Positions 34,523-64,000 of a stretch of DNA of 64,000 nt are shown in pieces. Each line of letters begins with the position of its first letter. The stretch's first letter is position 1. A program made the position numbers and the translations under genes. The notes under the pieces are model-generated. The model searched no databases. It worked only from the letters and a program-made list of their open reading frames with translations, and was not told the origin of the DNA. This stretch comes from Siphonobacter curvatus (GTDB lineage Bacteria > Bacteroidota > Bacteroidia > Cytophagales > Spirosomataceae), in contig NZ_PTRA01000001.1 in NCBI RefSeq assembly GCF_002943425.1, forward strand, positions 2,232,001-2,296,000, in the 5' to 3' direction.

Positions 34523-34546
34523 AAAGGCACACTTGCGTGTGCCTTT
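34523..34546 (-). terminator. Terminator of the tRNA-Lys operon
   Basis: AAAGGCACAC pairs with GTGTGCCTTT around TTGC, followed leftward by TTTTTGTTT. It begins two bases after the last tRNA-Lys. Confidence 0.85.
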
Positions 34547-34548
34547 CG

Positions 34549-34621
34549 TGATTCCGCTGGGATTCGAACCCAGGACCCATACATTAAAAGTGTATTGCTC
34601 TACCAGCTGAGCTACAGAATC
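34549..34621 (-). tRNA. tRNA-Lys (TTT), copy 3 in transcription order
   Basis: A 73-nt cloverleaf: acceptor GATTCTG with CGGAATC, anticodon loop CTTTTAA, T loop TTCGAAT and discriminator A. CCA is not encoded. It is identical to the other two copies. Confidence 0.97.
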
Positions 34622-34713
34622 GGTACTTTCTAACAAATAGAGGATTAAAACAAACTTCGGATGGTAACGAAGAGACGCTAAAAAGCGTTGATTTTAACTC
34701 TAAACTGTTTTGG

Positions 34714-34786
34714 TGATTCCGCTGGGATTCGAACCCAGGACCCATACATTAAAAGTGTATTGCTCTACCAGCTGAGCTACAGAATC
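34714..34786 (-). tRNA. tRNA-Lys (TTT), copy 2
   Basis: Same 73-nt sequence as the copies at 34549 and 34879, inside the second 165-bp repeat unit. Confidence 0.97.
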
Positions 34787-34878
34787 GGTACTTTCTAACA
34801 AATAGAGGATTAAAACAAACTTCGGATGGTAACGAAGAGACGCTAAAAAGCGTTGATTTTAACTCTAAACTGTTTTGG

Positions 34879-34951
34879 TGATTCCGCTGGGATTCGAACC
34901 CAGGACCCATACATTAAAAGTGTATTGCTCTACCAGCTGAGCTACAGAATC
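34879..34951 (-). tRNA. tRNA-Lys (TTT), copy 1
   Basis: Same 73-nt sequence. It is first in transcription order, 42 bp downstream of the TACTTTTG box at 34994-35001. Confidence 0.97.
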
Positions 34952-50758: not shown

Positions 50759-52366
50759 ATGAATATTCAATTTAAGATTCGCACCGACAAGCCTGAAAAC
50801 TCAGATGGCTTTCCCATTTACATGACCCTTTATTATATGCATCAGCGGTACCTGTACTCTACCCAGTGCCGGTCTAAGACTAGCGACTGGGATTCGGTCA
50901 AGGGATTGCCTAAGAAGAAACATCCCTTTCACGAGCAGATCAAGCAAAGGATTGACAACCTTCAAGATCGAACTAAACGTCTTTTTATGGTTCGTGCTCC
51001 TTTTGGTTTTCCGTCGAACGAACAGTTACGTAGCTATCTTGACGGAGTGGATGTGCATGGGATGGCTTTATTACTTTCCAAATTCGTTGAATATCCTGGG
51101 ATGTTCTTCCAGGCAGCTGACTCACTCCGGGACTTCTTAACCCTTCACCTGATTGATGTCTTACAGTTCGATAGTCACAACTACCAGGCTTATGAGAAAA
51201 CCATCCGTCTTCAATACGATATTACTATTGCTGAAGCTTTACTTTCCTATACGCTCCAATTACTGGAAGGAATTGAGACGTTCGTATCCACTCCTATTCC
51301 CTGTTTACATTCGGCTCCTCAATATGATTTTTTTGAGGAATACGATCGTTTTATGGCGGATGGTATTCTGATGGGAAAGAAAGACGGTACCATGCGGCCG
51401 TACAGGGCCTTGCTAAAACTCTTGAAAAAATTTGACGAAATAAAGCCTGGCACACTCATTATTAGCGAGTATACGGCAAGTGTACACCAGAGTTTCCTGC
51501 GTTATTTGATGAGCCTTCGGGATTATCACCCCAACTATATTTCAGGCATCTGCAAAAACCTGACTGCGTTCTTTAATTGGTGTATCAAGCAAGGATATCC
51601 TCTACACAAACAGCACGCCAAGATTTCTCAAAAATACATTGAACCTCCCCGGTGCGTACTAACGATGGAGGAAGTGACGCAGATCATGGGTGTAAACGTG
51701 TTTCGCTACAATGATTATGTAGCTGCATTAAATCCAGAAGATCGATTGGGTATTCCTATGTGGAAAACAGTTGAAAAGACACGGGATAGCTTTGTGTTTG
51801 CCTGTTTTACGGGTCTACGCTACTCTGATCTTTCCAGACTTTCCGAATCGCACATTGTAGATGGAAAAGACTATGATCTGATCATTCTCCACCCTACAAA
51901 GGCCGTAACTACCCGATCAGTTAAAATTAAGAAGGTAGTCATACCATTAACGGATATCCCCCAGTCCATTCGGAACAAATACAAGAATCGACACTCAACC
52001 ATAGTTCCTGTGCCTGCTGCCAGCTATTACAATTCAAGCCTAAAGATTCTAGCGACGATTGCGGGCCTTAAAGGGAGTTTTGAAACGATCGAATACGAAC
52101 GAAATACACCTAAGATTGTAAATGTGCCCAAGGTCGAAGCCATCACCTCACACGTGGCCCGGCATACCTTTGCCACCCTGCTTGCCGGATTAAACATCCC
52201 TCAAAAGTTTATCCAGGACACGCTAGGCCATTCTGATCAGCGACAAACAGCTATTTATACCCACTACGTGGAAAGCGAAGCTTCGAAGCAAATTGTTCAG
52301 GCTTTTAAGAAAATAGCTTCCAGGGACCTAAGTATGCTTCTTATTAATGAAGCCTTTAAAGATTAG
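50759..52366 (+). CDS. Tyrosine-type recombinase/integrase
   Basis: This 535-residue protein has an N-terminal arm-binding-like domain (IQFKIRTDKPENSDGFPIYM), a SAM-like core-binding domain (about 205-290) and a C-terminal catalytic domain. The tyrosine-recombinase residues are all present: Arg354 in TGLRYSDL, His465 and Arg468 in HVARHTF, His491 in TLGHSD and Tyr500 in AIYTHYVE. It therefore looks active. It starts 225 bp after tRNA-Leu in the same direction, typical of elements that insert in a tRNA 3' end. An insert of about 100 residues between the first two domains makes it longer than many relatives. Confidence 0.95.
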   Translation: MNIQFKIRTDKPENSDGFPIYMTLYYMHQRYLYSTQCRSKTSDWDSVKGLPKKKHPFHEQIKQRIDNLQDRTKRLFMVRAPFGFPSNEQLRSYLDGVDVHGMALLLSKFVEYPGMFFQAADSLRDFLTLHLIDVLQFDSHNYQAYEKTIRLQYDITIAEALLSYTLQLLEGIETFVSTPIPCLHSAPQYDFFEEYDRFMADGILMGKKDGTMRPYRALLKLLKKFDEIKPGTLIISEYTASVHQSFLRYLMSLRDYHPNYISGICKNLTAFFNWCIKQGYPLHKQHAKISQKYIEPPRCVLTMEEVTQIMGVNVFRYNDYVAALNPEDRLGIPMWKTVEKTRDSFVFACFTGLRYSDLSRLSESHIVDGKDYDLIILHPTKAVTTRSVKIKKVVIPLTDIPQSIRNKYKNRHSTIVPVPAASYYNSSLKILATIAGLKGSFETIEYERNTPKIVNVPKVEAITSHVARHTFATLLAGLNIPQKFIQDTLGHSDQRQTAIYTHYVESEASKQIVQAFKKIASRDLSMLLINEAFKD

Positions 52367-54721: not shown

Positions 54722-55390
54722 CTAAAGCTGATTTAGCAGTAATATCTTTACAATCTGATCGAGCTTATCCTTATTGACCTCTATAAACTTTTCAGATACT
54801 GCTTTCATTTTCGCCATCGCCTCAGGACTGGCATCGTCCATCTTGATACCTGGCGAATCAAAGTCCAGACGGATGTATCGCTCCTCGGAATCAAAAAACC
54901 AGTACAACAGATTGACAATGAAGTCCACGACCTGAAAGGAGCCAGACATCTGAATACCGATAATGCTCTCGACCATCATCAAAGCCATCTTACCGACCAA
55001 AGTACTTTTTTTGCCCTTCTCAGCTCCTGTTCCCCAGCTGATAACGTAGGGCAGCTCTTTACAGCCCTTATTGGCTTTGAAATACTCGGCGAGCGTCATC
55101 AGCGTTGGGTTCGCTGCGAACATGCCTCCATCAATAAGCGTATACTTGTTCCATGCTTTCGAAGTAATCTCGGCAGGTTCGAAGTACGTAGGAGCCGCCA
55201 TACTGGCCAGCGTAGCGTCCGCCAGATCGAAATCAAAATCAGGATCCTGTAAGGTGGTACGCTTTCCTTCGTTGGGCGGGTGATAGAAGACCGCCTGCGG
55301 GTACTGAGCCCGGAGGTAGTTGCAGACCTGAATCTGCACGTGATCCTCAAGGCCCAGATACTGTTCATAGGGATTTCGTTTGGGGTACAT
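54722..55390 (-). pseudogene. Chimera: VRR-NUC nuclease start joined to patatin end
   Basis: This 222-residue open frame joins two families. Residues 1-44 (GLEDHVQIQVCNYLRAQYPQ, then FYHPPNEGKR) are the opening of a phage VRR-NUC nuclease, whose PNEGKR motif normally leads into the catalytic core. From about residue 47 the sequence is the end of a patatin-like phospholipase: LASMAAPTYFEPA and LIDGGMFAANPTLMTLAEYF, with the catalytic Asp of DGG, then YVISWGTGAEKG. The patatin nucleophile motif GxSxG and most of the nuclease are missing, so neither activity is expected. The likely cause is a deletion that fused them near 55247-55258. It could be expressed as a new protein, but loss of function is simpler. 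Confidence 0.7.
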
Positions 55391-59239: not shown

Positions 59240-59464
59240 TTAGAATAAGCTTTGCTGCGTGCCTGATGTCCGAACGATCTCCTTCTCTAGCCTGTCAATC
59301 AGGACTCTGAACACATCGATGCGATGCTGAGCGACGTCGAAGGATACCTTACCCTTGCTGATCCAGTCAGGATACACCCGTATTCTCGTATCCAGCTCCC
59401 TTTTTAGCTCTTTCAGGGATTCTTCGAGGGTTTTGTGTTGGGGAATGGTGCTGAGCTGTTTCAT
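59240..59464 (-). CDS. Small helical phage-like protein
   Basis: About 74 residues from the ATG at 59464 (MKQLSTIPQHKTLEESLKEL), which I prefer to a start 22 codons upstream because that extra part lies within the methyltransferase reading frame and is not protein-like. It is a long amphipathic helix followed by VSFDVAQHRIDVFRVLIDRL. It overlaps the methyltransferase 3' end. No family name can be given. Confidence 0.6.
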   Translation of the reverse strand: MKQLSTIPQHKTLEESLKELKRELDTRIRVYPDWISKGKVSFDVAQHRIDVFRVLIDRLEKEIVRTSGTQQSLF

Positions 59465-61713
59465 CCTTGCCTCCCTTCGCCAAAGCCTCCACCCAAACCT
59501 TTGGAAACACAGGAGGCACGCTGTTACCAATGTATTTTTTCTGATCAGTCTGGGAGCCAGCCAAGTAGTAGTTAGCCGGAAACCCTTGAATGAGTTTAAG
59601 TTCCTGCACCTTCAGCATACGCATTTTGATGTCTACGATGCCATACTCGGCCATGAAGGCTTTGATTTTTCGTACGGGTTCCGAATCGCTTTCGTAGACC
59701 AGAATGGCAGGCAAGGGTCCTTTCTCCACCGTCATCACATAGGCCCAGTGACTATCTGCTGTAATCGTTGGGGCTGGACTATCCAGGGGCGTACCTACGT
59801 TAGCGAAGTTGGTGCTCATCAGATAGTGATGATTACCTGTCAAAAGCGTGGGCCCCGCCTCATCCAGTGAAGTACCTGGATTCTTGTGCATGTTGGTAAG
59901 TAACCATTCGGGCGATACGATTGATGCGGGAGCCTTGTCCTGCCGGGCGATGATCGTGTGAGCGGGCTTTTCAATGCTGTGAGAGTGGCCGCCCCACTGC
60001 GGGTCTACGATGAAGGCCTGCACCAAAGCACTATGGGGATTGACGGTAATGCAAGGGGCCGGGTCCTCAACACTCGACGGCTTGGACTGACCGTACTGTT
60101 GATCGATGAATTCAGCCGTCACGACCCTGTGCTTGGGTACAGCAGATAAGAGCAGATGCCGGAGCGTTCATGGACTAATCCTGCTGACCTTGCGAGTACT
60201 GTAAGGCAATGAACTGCTCGGCTTGCACCACACCCATTTTATCCTTGGTTGTGATCGTAGGACAGGGTTGATTCAGAGCCGTTGATTGGCTATTGCTGTG
60301 GTAGCTCAACAGGTATTCCGACTGGACCAGTCCGACGCGGTCCGTGGTCGTCAGCGTGGAGCAGGGGCTATCCGAGCTAAACGTATTATCGCCCGTTCCG
60401 TGGTATTTCATGCAAAAGGGTTCCGGACTCACCAATGACTGATTATCGCCTGCCGTAATTACCCGCGAAGGGTTTTCAACCGGATACGATTTTGCGGATG
60501 CTTCACCGCCGTAGGACTGAACTACGAAGGGTTCTCAGCTGACCAGGGCAATGGTGTTTTCAGTCATCAGGGTTTGAGCGGGCTCATCCATGCTTTTCAC
60601 CCGGTTCTCAGGCGACCCGCTGTTGTAAGTCATAGCAAAGGGCTCGGGCGTTACCATCGCGTGCCCGTCCTGGGTAGTAATCGTACGGGCCGGGCGGTCG
60701 CTGGGATAGGTGTTATGCCCTTTGGAGTTAGCTCCGAATACCTGCGTCATAAAGGGCAGGACTGAAACCAAAGCCTGATGATCGACGGTCGTAATGGAAG
60801 CTGCGGGCTGGTCAGCGGAGAAGGTCATTCCCGGTCCGGAGAAATATTTGGTCAAGAATTCCCGGCGGCCACCCCCTACGTGACGGATCAGGCCTTCGAA
60901 AATCCGCTCGTAGGTTTTATCCGACAGGGGTGGGTTTCGAAAGATCGTGCGTCCCTTGTCTTCGAGTTGCAGGCACTCCCGGATGGGCCGCCACTTTTCA
61001 AGCTGCTTGCCAAACATTCCTACTTTCGAGGGGTCTTTGGCATGCGTAGGCTCGGGCCAGGCAATGGGAAGATTGCCCTTGGCAAAGATGCCAAACAACC
61101 GCGTGCGGCTCGTGTTAGCCCCGTAATCTGCTACATTACACAGGCGGGCATCGTAGCGATATCCCATTGCTTCAATACTTTGATACCAGCGAACGTAATC
61201 CGATCCTTTCTTTCTCGACACCGGCTTGCCGTTTTCATCGAGCGGTCCCCAGCTCATGAACTCCCGAACGTTTTCGATGGTGAAGTAATCGGGCATTATC
61301 ACGATCAGATACATCTCCATGAAGTCAGCCAGCATGCGGCTATCGGGATCTCGAGGTTTTCCGCCTTTGGCATTGCTGAAATTCGTGCATTCCAGCGAGG
61401 CTTGAAAAACGATTTTAGCGTTCGGATATAGCTTACGACCTTCTTTGATCACGGCCAGTACCCGCTCGGGCAGGGATGAATCCCGGATATCCTCAATGAA
61501 GTGGGTTGTTTCGGGATGGTTTCTGGCGTGGGATTCGATAGCCCCATTGTCGTGATTGATGCCTACGCCCACTACGGCTATCCGGTTTCCATTTTCATTC
61601 GTTGCGTTTTCGACGCCTTCGGTTACTCCACCCGCTCCGCAGAAGCCGTCGACGTAGTAGTACTCAACCTCTTCGGGTACGATGGGTGGTTTAGGTAATT
61701 TTCTATTGCTCAT
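59367..61713 (-). pseudogene. DNA cytosine-5 methyltransferase with a repeat array, broken
   Basis: The frame from 61713 gives the catalytic part: SAM-binding YYVDGFCGAGGVTEG, the catalytic Cys in QASLECTNFSNAKGG, the ENV motif in FTIENVREF and the NTSRTRLFGIF motif. It then enters tandem repeats and meets TGA at 60535. The same frame runs on to TAG at 60175. A third frame continues to the C-terminal motifs (LKLIQGFPANYYLAG, YIGNSVPP) and 59367. So two stops and a shift break one gene of about 780 residues. The enzyme would methylate cytosine in the element's or host's DNA. The last 34 residues overlap the next gene, which is unusual. Confidence 0.85.
59730..60858 (-). repeat. About eleven 34-residue tandem repeats in the methyltransferase
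   Basis: Each unit of roughly 100 bp encodes an aromatic start (F/Y), a Gly/Ser-rich turn and a signature like SxDxPAxTITTxDxxALVxPE (for example PSDRPARTITTQDGHAMV and LNQPCPTITTKDKMGVV). The units differ strongly from one another, so this is an old protein repeat rather than a recent DNA repeat. It occupies the target-recognition region. Confidence 0.8.
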
Positions 61714-63061: not shown

Positions 63062-64000
63062 TTAGTTTTCATCACTCATGGTCACAGAAGGCCTCAAACT
63101 TGGGCTAGAAGCCTCGAACTCTATCCAGTTGAACATCTCCCCCAACCGATCAGCAAAACGCCCGCCATACGCCTTTTTCAAATCTTCCAGACTTCCGTTG
63201 GTGGTGGCATGGAATCGGAAGTACTGCCCGACGCACTTGCTGTAAATCTTTTCGAGTAGCCCCTGCATCACGTTCTGGCGATCGGAAAAGTGGTGGCCTT
63301 CGCCTTCCGTACCCAGATCATCAAAGCACCAACCAATGGCATCATGCCAGTACTGCGAGCGGTAGGCGTTGGGAGCAGGACGAGTAAATACGGTAATGCC
63401 TTCTTCTCCTCCACCCTTGCTACTTTTGAACCGCTCGACGACATCACGAACCGAAAAGACATTGAAGGGCTCTACGGCAAAGTTTCTGTCCCCCAATTGC
63501 AGGTTGCCAAGGATTTCCATAAGCCTGGTCTTTCCGCAGCCTACAGGCCCAGTGAGCAGCAGACCTTTGCTAAGCGAGAAGTTTAATCCTGCCGACCGGC
63601 CTAGTTCCTCAAAGCGGGGGTCTTTTGCCAAGTACAGACACAACAGCGGCAAGATTCCTCCGTAGACCTCAGCCGAAAAGGGCTTGTCCCAATGTTCAGC
63701 CACTGCTTTCAGCTTTCCTGCTTCGGTGATCAGTTTAAGGATCTGGCTTGAGCTTAGTTCGGGCTTTAAGCTTTTAGGCATCCGTACGGCATCCAGGTAA
63801 GCAGCATTGCGACGATGAATCTGCAGGCGTTCCCGTTTTCTCTCCCGTTCTTTCTGGACATCTTCCTGAGTAGGCTCCCGCTTAAGCTTTAATCGCTTTT
63901 TGAGATTTTGCATTTCGTACTCACTGAGCTCAGGCAGATAATCCTCATCCACAATCTCAAGGATCGAGCTGGATGTGGTCCCAGCTTCGGGGTATGGACT
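63062..64000 (-). CDS. DnaC-like AAA+ helicase loader, partial
   Basis: At least 296 residues; the frame stays open to the window edge, and a GTG at 63952 is only one possible start, so the true 5' end may lie outside. The AAA+ core has Walker A LLTGPVGCGKTRL and Walker B WCFDDLGTEGEG, followed by NVMQGLLEKIYS and the sensor-like HATTNGSLEDLKKAYGGRFA. Such proteins load the replicative helicase on phage or host DNA. The N-terminal part is a basic coiled coil (MQNLKKRLKLKREPTQEDVQ). Confidence 0.82.
   Translation of the reverse strand, partial: SPYPEAGTTSSSILEIVDEDYLPELSEYEMQNLKKRLKLKREPTQEDVQKERERKRERLQIHRRNAAYLDAVRMPKSLKPELSSSQILKLITEAGKLKAVAEHWDKPFSAEVYGGILPLLCLYLAKDPRFEELGRSAGLNFSLSKGLLLTGPVGCGKTRLMEILGNLQLGDRNFAVEPFNVFSVRDVVERFKSSKGGGEEGITVFTRPAPNAYRSQYWHDAIGWCFDDLGTEGEGHHFSDRQNVMQGLLEKIYSKCVGQYFRFHATTNGSLEDLKKAYGGRFADRLGEMFNWIEFEASSPSLRPSVTMSDEN

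Follow-up and report, generated by a model that had tools for sequence, protein, structure and literature searches.

A gene for a C5-cytosine DNA methyltransferase lies on the minus strand of the Siphonobacter curvatus window, the 64,000-nucleotide stretch of DNA analysed here, from position 61713 down to 59367. Between its catalytic region and its C-terminal motifs it encodes a long chain of short, diverged repeat units. What such a chain does in a cytosine methyltransferase, whether its length is exceptional, and whether the gene that carries it is intact are the questions that this locus raises.

A cytosine methyltransferase gene with an array of diverged units

The gene is read on the minus strand as three open pieces. 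The catalytic motifs and the first three units are in the N-terminal piece (ORF 60535-61713, 392 aa). Units 4, 5 and 6 follow in the middle piece (ORF 60175-60435, its frame open from 60534), together with the first part of unit 7, and the C-terminal piece (ORF 59367-60122, 251 aa) holds the last four units, 8 to 11, along with the C-terminal motifs. The catalytic region spans 60859..61713, with an ATG at 61713 and the motifs SLECTNFS and ENV; the C-terminal motifs, MRMLKVQEL...QGFP and KKYIGNSV, occupy 59370..59735 within ORF 59367-60122. PF00145 matches both outer pieces (E 3e-11 for the N-terminal piece; E 2.3e-8, over profile positions 234-313, for the C-terminal piece), which places the gene in this family by its catalytic and its C-terminal conserved motifs alike, and PF00145 was present in all 51 relatives scanned. 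The best phage family for both pieces is PHROG 116 (E 9.3e-43 and 4.2e-19, respectively), which the search output names only “DNA methyltransferase”, with no description of an array. The first-pass annotation had read a cytosine methyltransferase whose catalytic and C-terminal motifs frame the repeats, and the array does consist of several modules in tandem, flanked by the catalytic region on one side and the MRML/IGNSV motifs on the other.

A unit profile of 31 columns (consensus FLSKYYSGGGKPSSIDEPAPTITTNDRHALV), applied to six-frame translations of the window, located ten units, all on the minus strand from 59742 to 60858 and scoring 4.4 to 34.3 bits. Nothing else in the six frames reached 2 bits, and the best score in 20 base-shuffled windows was 1.1 bits. 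A profile rebuilt without this genome’s own copy recovered the same ten units and an eleventh at 0.4 bits, the interrupted unit 7. This weak eleventh (about 60120-60213) contains a TAG and a frameshift, so that eleven is, by eye, the correct count.

From the N-terminal end, and all on the minus strand, these are unit 1 (60766..60858; 30.7 bits), unit 2 (60652..60753; 21.4 bits), unit 3 (60541..60639; 21.2 bits over 60541-60633, its start extended by eye), unit 4 (60430..60528; 14.8 bits), unit 5 (60325..60417; 29.3 bits), unit 6 (60226..60312; 27.1 bits), unit 7 (60120..60213; read by eye in two frames, its first part scoring 0.4 bits) and unit 8 (60021..60110; 34.3 bits). The last three, whose ends were set by eye, are unit 9 (59916..60014; 4.8 bits over 59943-59999), which is of a near-universal kind that we call IARxDK, unit 10 (59817..59906; 4.4 bits over 59820-59894) and unit 11 (59736..59816; 11.2 bits over 59742-59822). 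By eye, units 4 and 6 have no counterpart in a nine-unit relative, L006. The array goes unreported by a tandem repeat finder working at the DNA level, as expected from units so diverged. The earlier description of about eleven diverged units of 34 residues with a PAxTITTxDxxALV signature is therefore sound: ten are found by profile and the interrupted unit 7 by eye, the signature agrees with the profile consensus, and the length equals the median unit spacing in relatives (below).

The usual motif of C5 methyltransferases is Pro-Cys. Glu precedes the catalytic Cys in the window (SLECTNFS), and Asp does so in Pseudomonas phage F116, Citrobacter phage phiNP and relative L201, in contrast to the methyltransferase of phage phi3T, where Pro precedes it. 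Because the ORFs of the other relatives were picked by the pattern S-[LP]-E-C-T, Glu at this position is present in them by construction, and we therefore offer no count of it.

Arrays of variable length are widespread in phages

A first viral scan with the window’s own piece as query returned no relative, and an alignment-based scan succeeded. Phages evidently carry this enzyme: the N-terminal piece has matches in 263 phage records, none of which reaches 60% identity, and a pattern search of IMG/VR gave 515 matches, 501 of them encoding relatives. Loci were taken as the best 80 of 239 and the best 80 of 501, ranked by similarity to a nine-unit query; from 194 loci, ORFs with the catalytic motif were obtained in 177, leaving 149 unique proteins after identical ones were removed (in one extraction, 8 of 160 loci had no S-[LP]-E-C-T ORF). 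Units were counted in 117 of these 149 relatives, the other 32 being left out for want of a C-terminal anchor or because they were the window’s own piece.

The number of units is not fixed, as a count across homologues, a check proposed at first pass, makes clear. The 117 arrays range from 2 to 11 units and mostly have 6 to 8, in a distribution that leans to long arrays since loci were ranked by likeness to a nine-unit query: 2 units (1 relative), 3 (1), 4 (2), 5 (7), 6 (34), 7 (36), 8 (26), 9 (6), 10 (3) and 11 (1). On average, each additional unit lengthens the protein by 36.9 aa (r 0.95); the median unit spacing is 34. Eleven further phage enzymes carry arrays by profile hits at a domain E of up to 1, many of them weak. 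These are the Pseudomonas phages F116 (8 units), Presto (8), UAntarctica (6) and Haddon (5), Nostoc phage Nsp-JY10 (8), Burkholderia phage BgManors32 (7), Citrobacter phage phiNP (6), a Bradyrhizobium phage (6), Gordonia phage Suerte (4), Mycobacterium phage Misha28 (4) and Psychrobacillus phage PVJ1 (2). Thus, the first-pass view that so many units would be unusual is not supported: in the relatives sampled, 6 to 8 units are ordinary and eleven is the top of the range, and Pseudomonas, Citrobacter, Burkholderia, Nostoc, Gordonia and Mycobacterium all have phages with multi-unit arrays. Phage F116 has three annotated methyltransferase genes in a row, with the array in the middle one.

Unit types recur between enzymes and rarely within one

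Units of one array differ strongly from each other, with a median identity of 30% and a maximum of 63% (1656 pairs), although the same types recur in other arrays. We typed the units of 75 arrays that were less than 80% identical to each other in the catalytic region, using a distance cut of 0.55. This assigned 432 of 526 units to 41 types, 14 of which are single units; the remaining 94 had too few aligned columns to be typed. The arrays are non-redundant: a type occurred twice in one array only 7 times, against a mean of 75.5 (minimum 61) when labels were shuffled and 54 to 66 (minimum 38) when they were shuffled inside position bins. Other distance cuts agreed (1 observed vs 38.0 shuffled, 2 vs 51.5 and 20 vs 96.3). 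The order of types is mostly conserved, both orders being seen in 8 of 52 type pairs. Every unit was typed in just 1 of the 75 arrays, and full architecture strings are therefore not comparable; for enzymes at 70-80% catalytic identity, the sets of typed units had a mean Jaccard index of 0.51 (228 pairs).

Across 807 units of the 117 arrays, T stands at column 21 in 66% and I, L or V at column 22 in about 99%, giving a T-(I/L/V) core. The most variable columns are 3, 11-13, 17 and 25. Columns 11-13 and 25 flank the core and may be compared with the two recognition loops of M.HhaI; column 3 has no such explanation.

One kind of unit stands apart. Of the 117 arrays, 114 contain an IARxDK-like unit, and in 107 it comes last; in the window two units follow it. 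The three arrays with no recognisable IARxDK unit are L008, L164 and L170; in L008, by eye the same enzyme as L038, the last unit is of an ITANRKHHYLV kind.

Comparison with known methyltransferases

A few Bacillus phages have long, over decades, been known to encode multispecific methyltransferases. These enzymes carry a handful of recognition domains, and each domain has a T-(L/I/V) core. We searched three distinct proteins with the unit profile. The multispecific phi3T enzyme scored a weak 9.4 bits over two places, where the core reads like S-x-e-x-P-x-x-T-(L/V)-x-T; the two other methyltransferases of the S. curvatus genome scored -0.1 and -1.1 bits.

In the account given by a review, temperate Bacillus phages encode several target recognition domains per polypeptide, with protection against many restriction systems (PMC12707154), and a second paper likewise ascribes tandem recognition domains to the multi-target Bacillus phage enzymes (PMC8936443). 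The Bacillus phage enzymes M.SPRI, M.phi3TI, M.H2I and M.(phi)BssHII resemble the present family in being phage-borne C5 enzymes with tandem domains, for which a role in protection against several restriction systems is proposed (PMC12707154, PMC8936443). In contrast to them, the present family has 2-11 units of about 34 residues, recurring unit types and exact one-unit insertions and deletions. In a search of the open-licence literature, we found no description of such arrays outside the Bacillus phage type. For Prevotella, a methylome study assigns its only m5C enzyme the single motif GCWGC (PMC5608340). A paper on a Pseudomonas prophage methyltransferase was set aside, as it concerns an m4C enzyme of another kind (PMC4936722).

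Structural models and how the units may recognise DNA

Two relatives were modelled with AlphaFold. The model of L066, with 10 units, had a mean pLDDT of 68.8, with high values in the catalytic and C-terminal parts and mostly below 60 in the array, except for an IARQDK unit at about 511-550 (75-89). The model of L200, the two-unit enzyme of Cellulophaga phage phi4:1, had a mean pLDDT of 81.6, with 33-40 in its first unit and 60-87 in its IARMDK unit. Only one unit, of the IARxDK kind, is confidently ordered in both models, and most other units are disordered. Both models aligned with M.HhaI (L066, Z 27.3 over 290 residues; L200, Z 25.9 over 286) and M.HaeIII (1dct; Z 28.2 over 283 and Z 25.4 over 278, respectively), and over the leading DNA complexes of these two enzymes, which share the overall fold of the modelled relatives, Z ranged from 24.4 to 28.2. 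The top structural matches were DNMT1 for L066 (29.1) and, for L200, a cytosine carboxymethyltransferase (25.9, tied with M.HhaI). Whereas M.HhaI and M.HaeIII each have one recognition domain and one target, an array takes this place here, and because only one unit is ordered in the two HhaI/HaeIII-type models, the units appear not to form one ordinary domain. A single ordinary domain with a fixed number of units was the outcome that the first-pass annotation had regarded as damaging to its proposal, and the predicted folds give no sign of such a domain. The unit profile alone had no match among solved structures at E up to 10.

We consider it likely that the family represents a multispecific phage methyltransferase of the kind known from Bacillus phages, with a larger and more modular array. 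One catalytic domain would be joined to a chain of units of about 34 residues, which takes the position of the single target-recognition region of ordinary relatives. The variable units probably serve as separate target-recognising domains, and each would recognise a different short sequence; the near-universal IARxDK unit may belong to the constant core or provide a default specificity. We infer that the units take turns at one DNA-reading site beside the catalytic pocket, in which case one enzyme would methylate many restriction sites in phage DNA. The disordered units of the models neither show such turn-taking nor argue against another arrangement. Gain, loss and exchange of whole units between phages would then retune which restriction enzymes are blocked.

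Three other ways of using the units were weighed against this multispecific reading. The IARxDK unit could be the only one that recognises DNA, the others being a tethered decoy, a protein-binding region or a packaging region under other pressures. Its order in both models, which no other unit shares, and its near-universal presence, usually in last place, would suit such a role, but the other units have a common core motif that resembles the two places in the phi3T enzyme and belong to types that recur across enzymes, and we regard this division of labour as unlikely.

We find it rather improbable that the units jointly read one long site, each contacting part of it as in a TALE, so that an array amounts to one long specificity. 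The regular unit length of about 34 residues and the mostly conserved order of types point that way. However, in place of the near-identical units of a TALE-like array, which differ at a specificity position, identity among units of one array is only about 30% (median 0.30, maximum 0.63 over the 1656 pairs), types almost never recur within an array, as they would if a code of one unit per base reused them, and neither model, both being of low confidence in the array, contains an ordered superhelix.

Doubtful, too, and to a greater degree, is a near-nonspecific enzyme whose units read very short overlapping sequences, so that most cytosines are methylated in some context. M.EcoGII, an adenine enzyme, offers a parallel. 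Low-specificity phage enzymes of its kind do exist, the review calling M.EcoGII highly non-specific (PMC12707154), but the strong differences between unit types suggest distinct targets.

Gain, loss and possible exchange of single units

Closely related enzymes differ by whole units. Among pairs with at least 90% catalytic identity, 6 of 22 differ by one gap of at least 20 aa, in every case of 28 or 33 aa, and apart from it these six pairs have no internal gap that reaches 6 aa. At 80% identity or more, a gap of at least 20 aa occurs in 48 of 100 pairs; 61 gaps are unit-sized (28-38 or 60-74 aa), and 13 measure 10-27 or 39-59 aa. Lowering the threshold to 75% blurs this pattern: 217 of 318 pairs then have such a gap, and 257 unit-sized gaps stand against 134 of other sizes. 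Pairs share members in all these counts, which are thus not independent. The Bacteroides phage BS-TP2 (L025) and the IMG/VR relative L116, for example, are 95% identical in the catalytic region and differ by exactly one FIDQQYG unit, BS-TP2 having 7 units and L116 8. Six extra units were compared with the rest of the array in which they stand, and none exceeded 47% identity to another unit there. The first-pass suggestion that the array grows and shrinks is therefore upheld as far as single-unit differences between near-identical enzymes go; growth by tandem duplication is unsupported, because the units of one array are not close copies.

Units may also move between enzymes. The identity of same-type units followed catalytic identity weakly (Spearman 0.26 over 7466 pairs; -0.07 to 0.48 for 13 types), compared with 0.36 to 0.69 for 25 catalytic windows of equal length; this fits an exchange of units, though part of the weakness is due to the restriction to one type, typing having narrowed the range. 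Among unit pairs at least 85% identical, only 4 of 291 join enzymes with less than 60% catalytic identity. Recent exchange between distant enzymes would thus seem to be rare, and the conserved type order also counts against free shuffling.

Since intact relatives gain and lose single units, and do so in many phages, the units may make up a swappable kit of wide distribution that disguises phage DNA from restriction enzymes. It is possible, although we lean somewhat against it, that Bacteroidota phages share a library of about 40 exchangeable unit types and other phyla have libraries of their own, with each non-redundant set of 2-11 units edited unit by unit and recording the restriction systems through which the phage has passed. 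If this shared-library reading is true, the target of a single decoded unit type could be predicted for all phages with that type, the recurrence of types making an assignment of unit to target transferable. One-unit differences that exist in nature, such as that between BS-TP2 and L116, offer natural experiments by which a unit could be matched to its target. If the units are recognition domains, the multispecific principle would be far more widespread, and more modular, than the Bacillus phage enzymes indicate.

The copy in Siphonobacter curvatus is interrupted

The reading frame in this genome is interrupted by two in-frame stops and a frameshift, which divide it into the three open pieces and which the first-pass annotation omitted. 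A TGA lies between units 3 and 4 (60535-60537, minus strand), where the frame is open in relatives L006 and L007; a TAG, read from the sequence, lies inside unit 7 (60175-60177, minus strand); and the frameshift falls between about 60175 and 60122 on the same strand, nearer the end of unit 7 than the TAG. Both relatives are uninterrupted: L006 has 9 units and is 74% identical over the N-terminal piece, and L007, the same protein as L066 of Fibrella forsythiae, has 10 units and is 66% identical there. In a comparison of both outer pieces with L006, conservation is similar (C-terminal 70%, N-terminal 73%), and the decay is therefore probably recent, or the assembly is wrong at that place. Estimates of dN/dS were unusable because 6 of 7 comparisons had reached saturation at synonymous sites. 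To judge from its frame, the window’s copy is probably inactive. We hold it to be highly improbable that the gene is instead split or recoded, with its three pieces still working jointly as one enzyme, for despite the nearly equal conservation of the outer pieces, an AGGG close upstream of the C-terminal piece’s GTG and the existence of split C5 methyltransferases such as M.AquI, the gene has two different stop codons as well as a frameshift, and L006 and L007 are uninterrupted.

The gene is placed between a recombinase-like integrase and genes of phage replication type. The integrase, tyrosine-recombinase-like as read from the ORF translation (50759..52366, plus strand), is the probable edge of an integrated element. 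A phage pyrophosphatase (58383..58943, minus strand; PHROG 9236 “pyrophosphatase”, E 5.4e-38), presumably MazG-like, lies on one side of the methyltransferase gene, and a DnaC-like helicase loader of the same element (63062..63952, minus strand; PHROG 50, E 9e-13), which runs past the window edge and is complete as an ORF in L030, on the other; further on, an ORF reads like a phage repressor (L031:1316-1753). By eye, no phage structural genes were seen in the window or among the ORFs listed to 22 kb beyond its edge. The setting looks like a prophage remnant, a reading rather than a proof because most of these ORFs were judged by eye. Matches to the methyltransferase at E 1e-30 or better occur in 15 of 222 genomes of the bacterial family, this genome included, and in none of the five other genomes of the genus. 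The explanation that, taken as a whole, we believe to be probably right includes a phage C5-cytosine methyltransferase of wide distribution, present here as a decayed copy in a prophage. The broken copy itself is of lesser interest, and it is the methyltransferase family that deserves the attention.

Defence-type genes adjoin the element to the right of the window, at L031:3948-5951, L031:8009-11494 and L031:12397-13299. The PADLOC matches there are Lamassu LmuB (E 2.5e-40), a near-complete candidate pair, PDC-M65A/B (E 3.4e-141 and 3.1e-301), and “cll” (E 7.8e-22). Within the window, a phospholipase (54722-55390, minus strand) matches defence effector models (E 9.5e-23) and looks cut at its N terminus, since the match begins at profile position 147 of 331. 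Elsewhere in the window, positions 34544-34951 hold a tandem repeat with a period of 165 and 2.5 copies at 99% match, its unit resembling a tRNA gene by eye.
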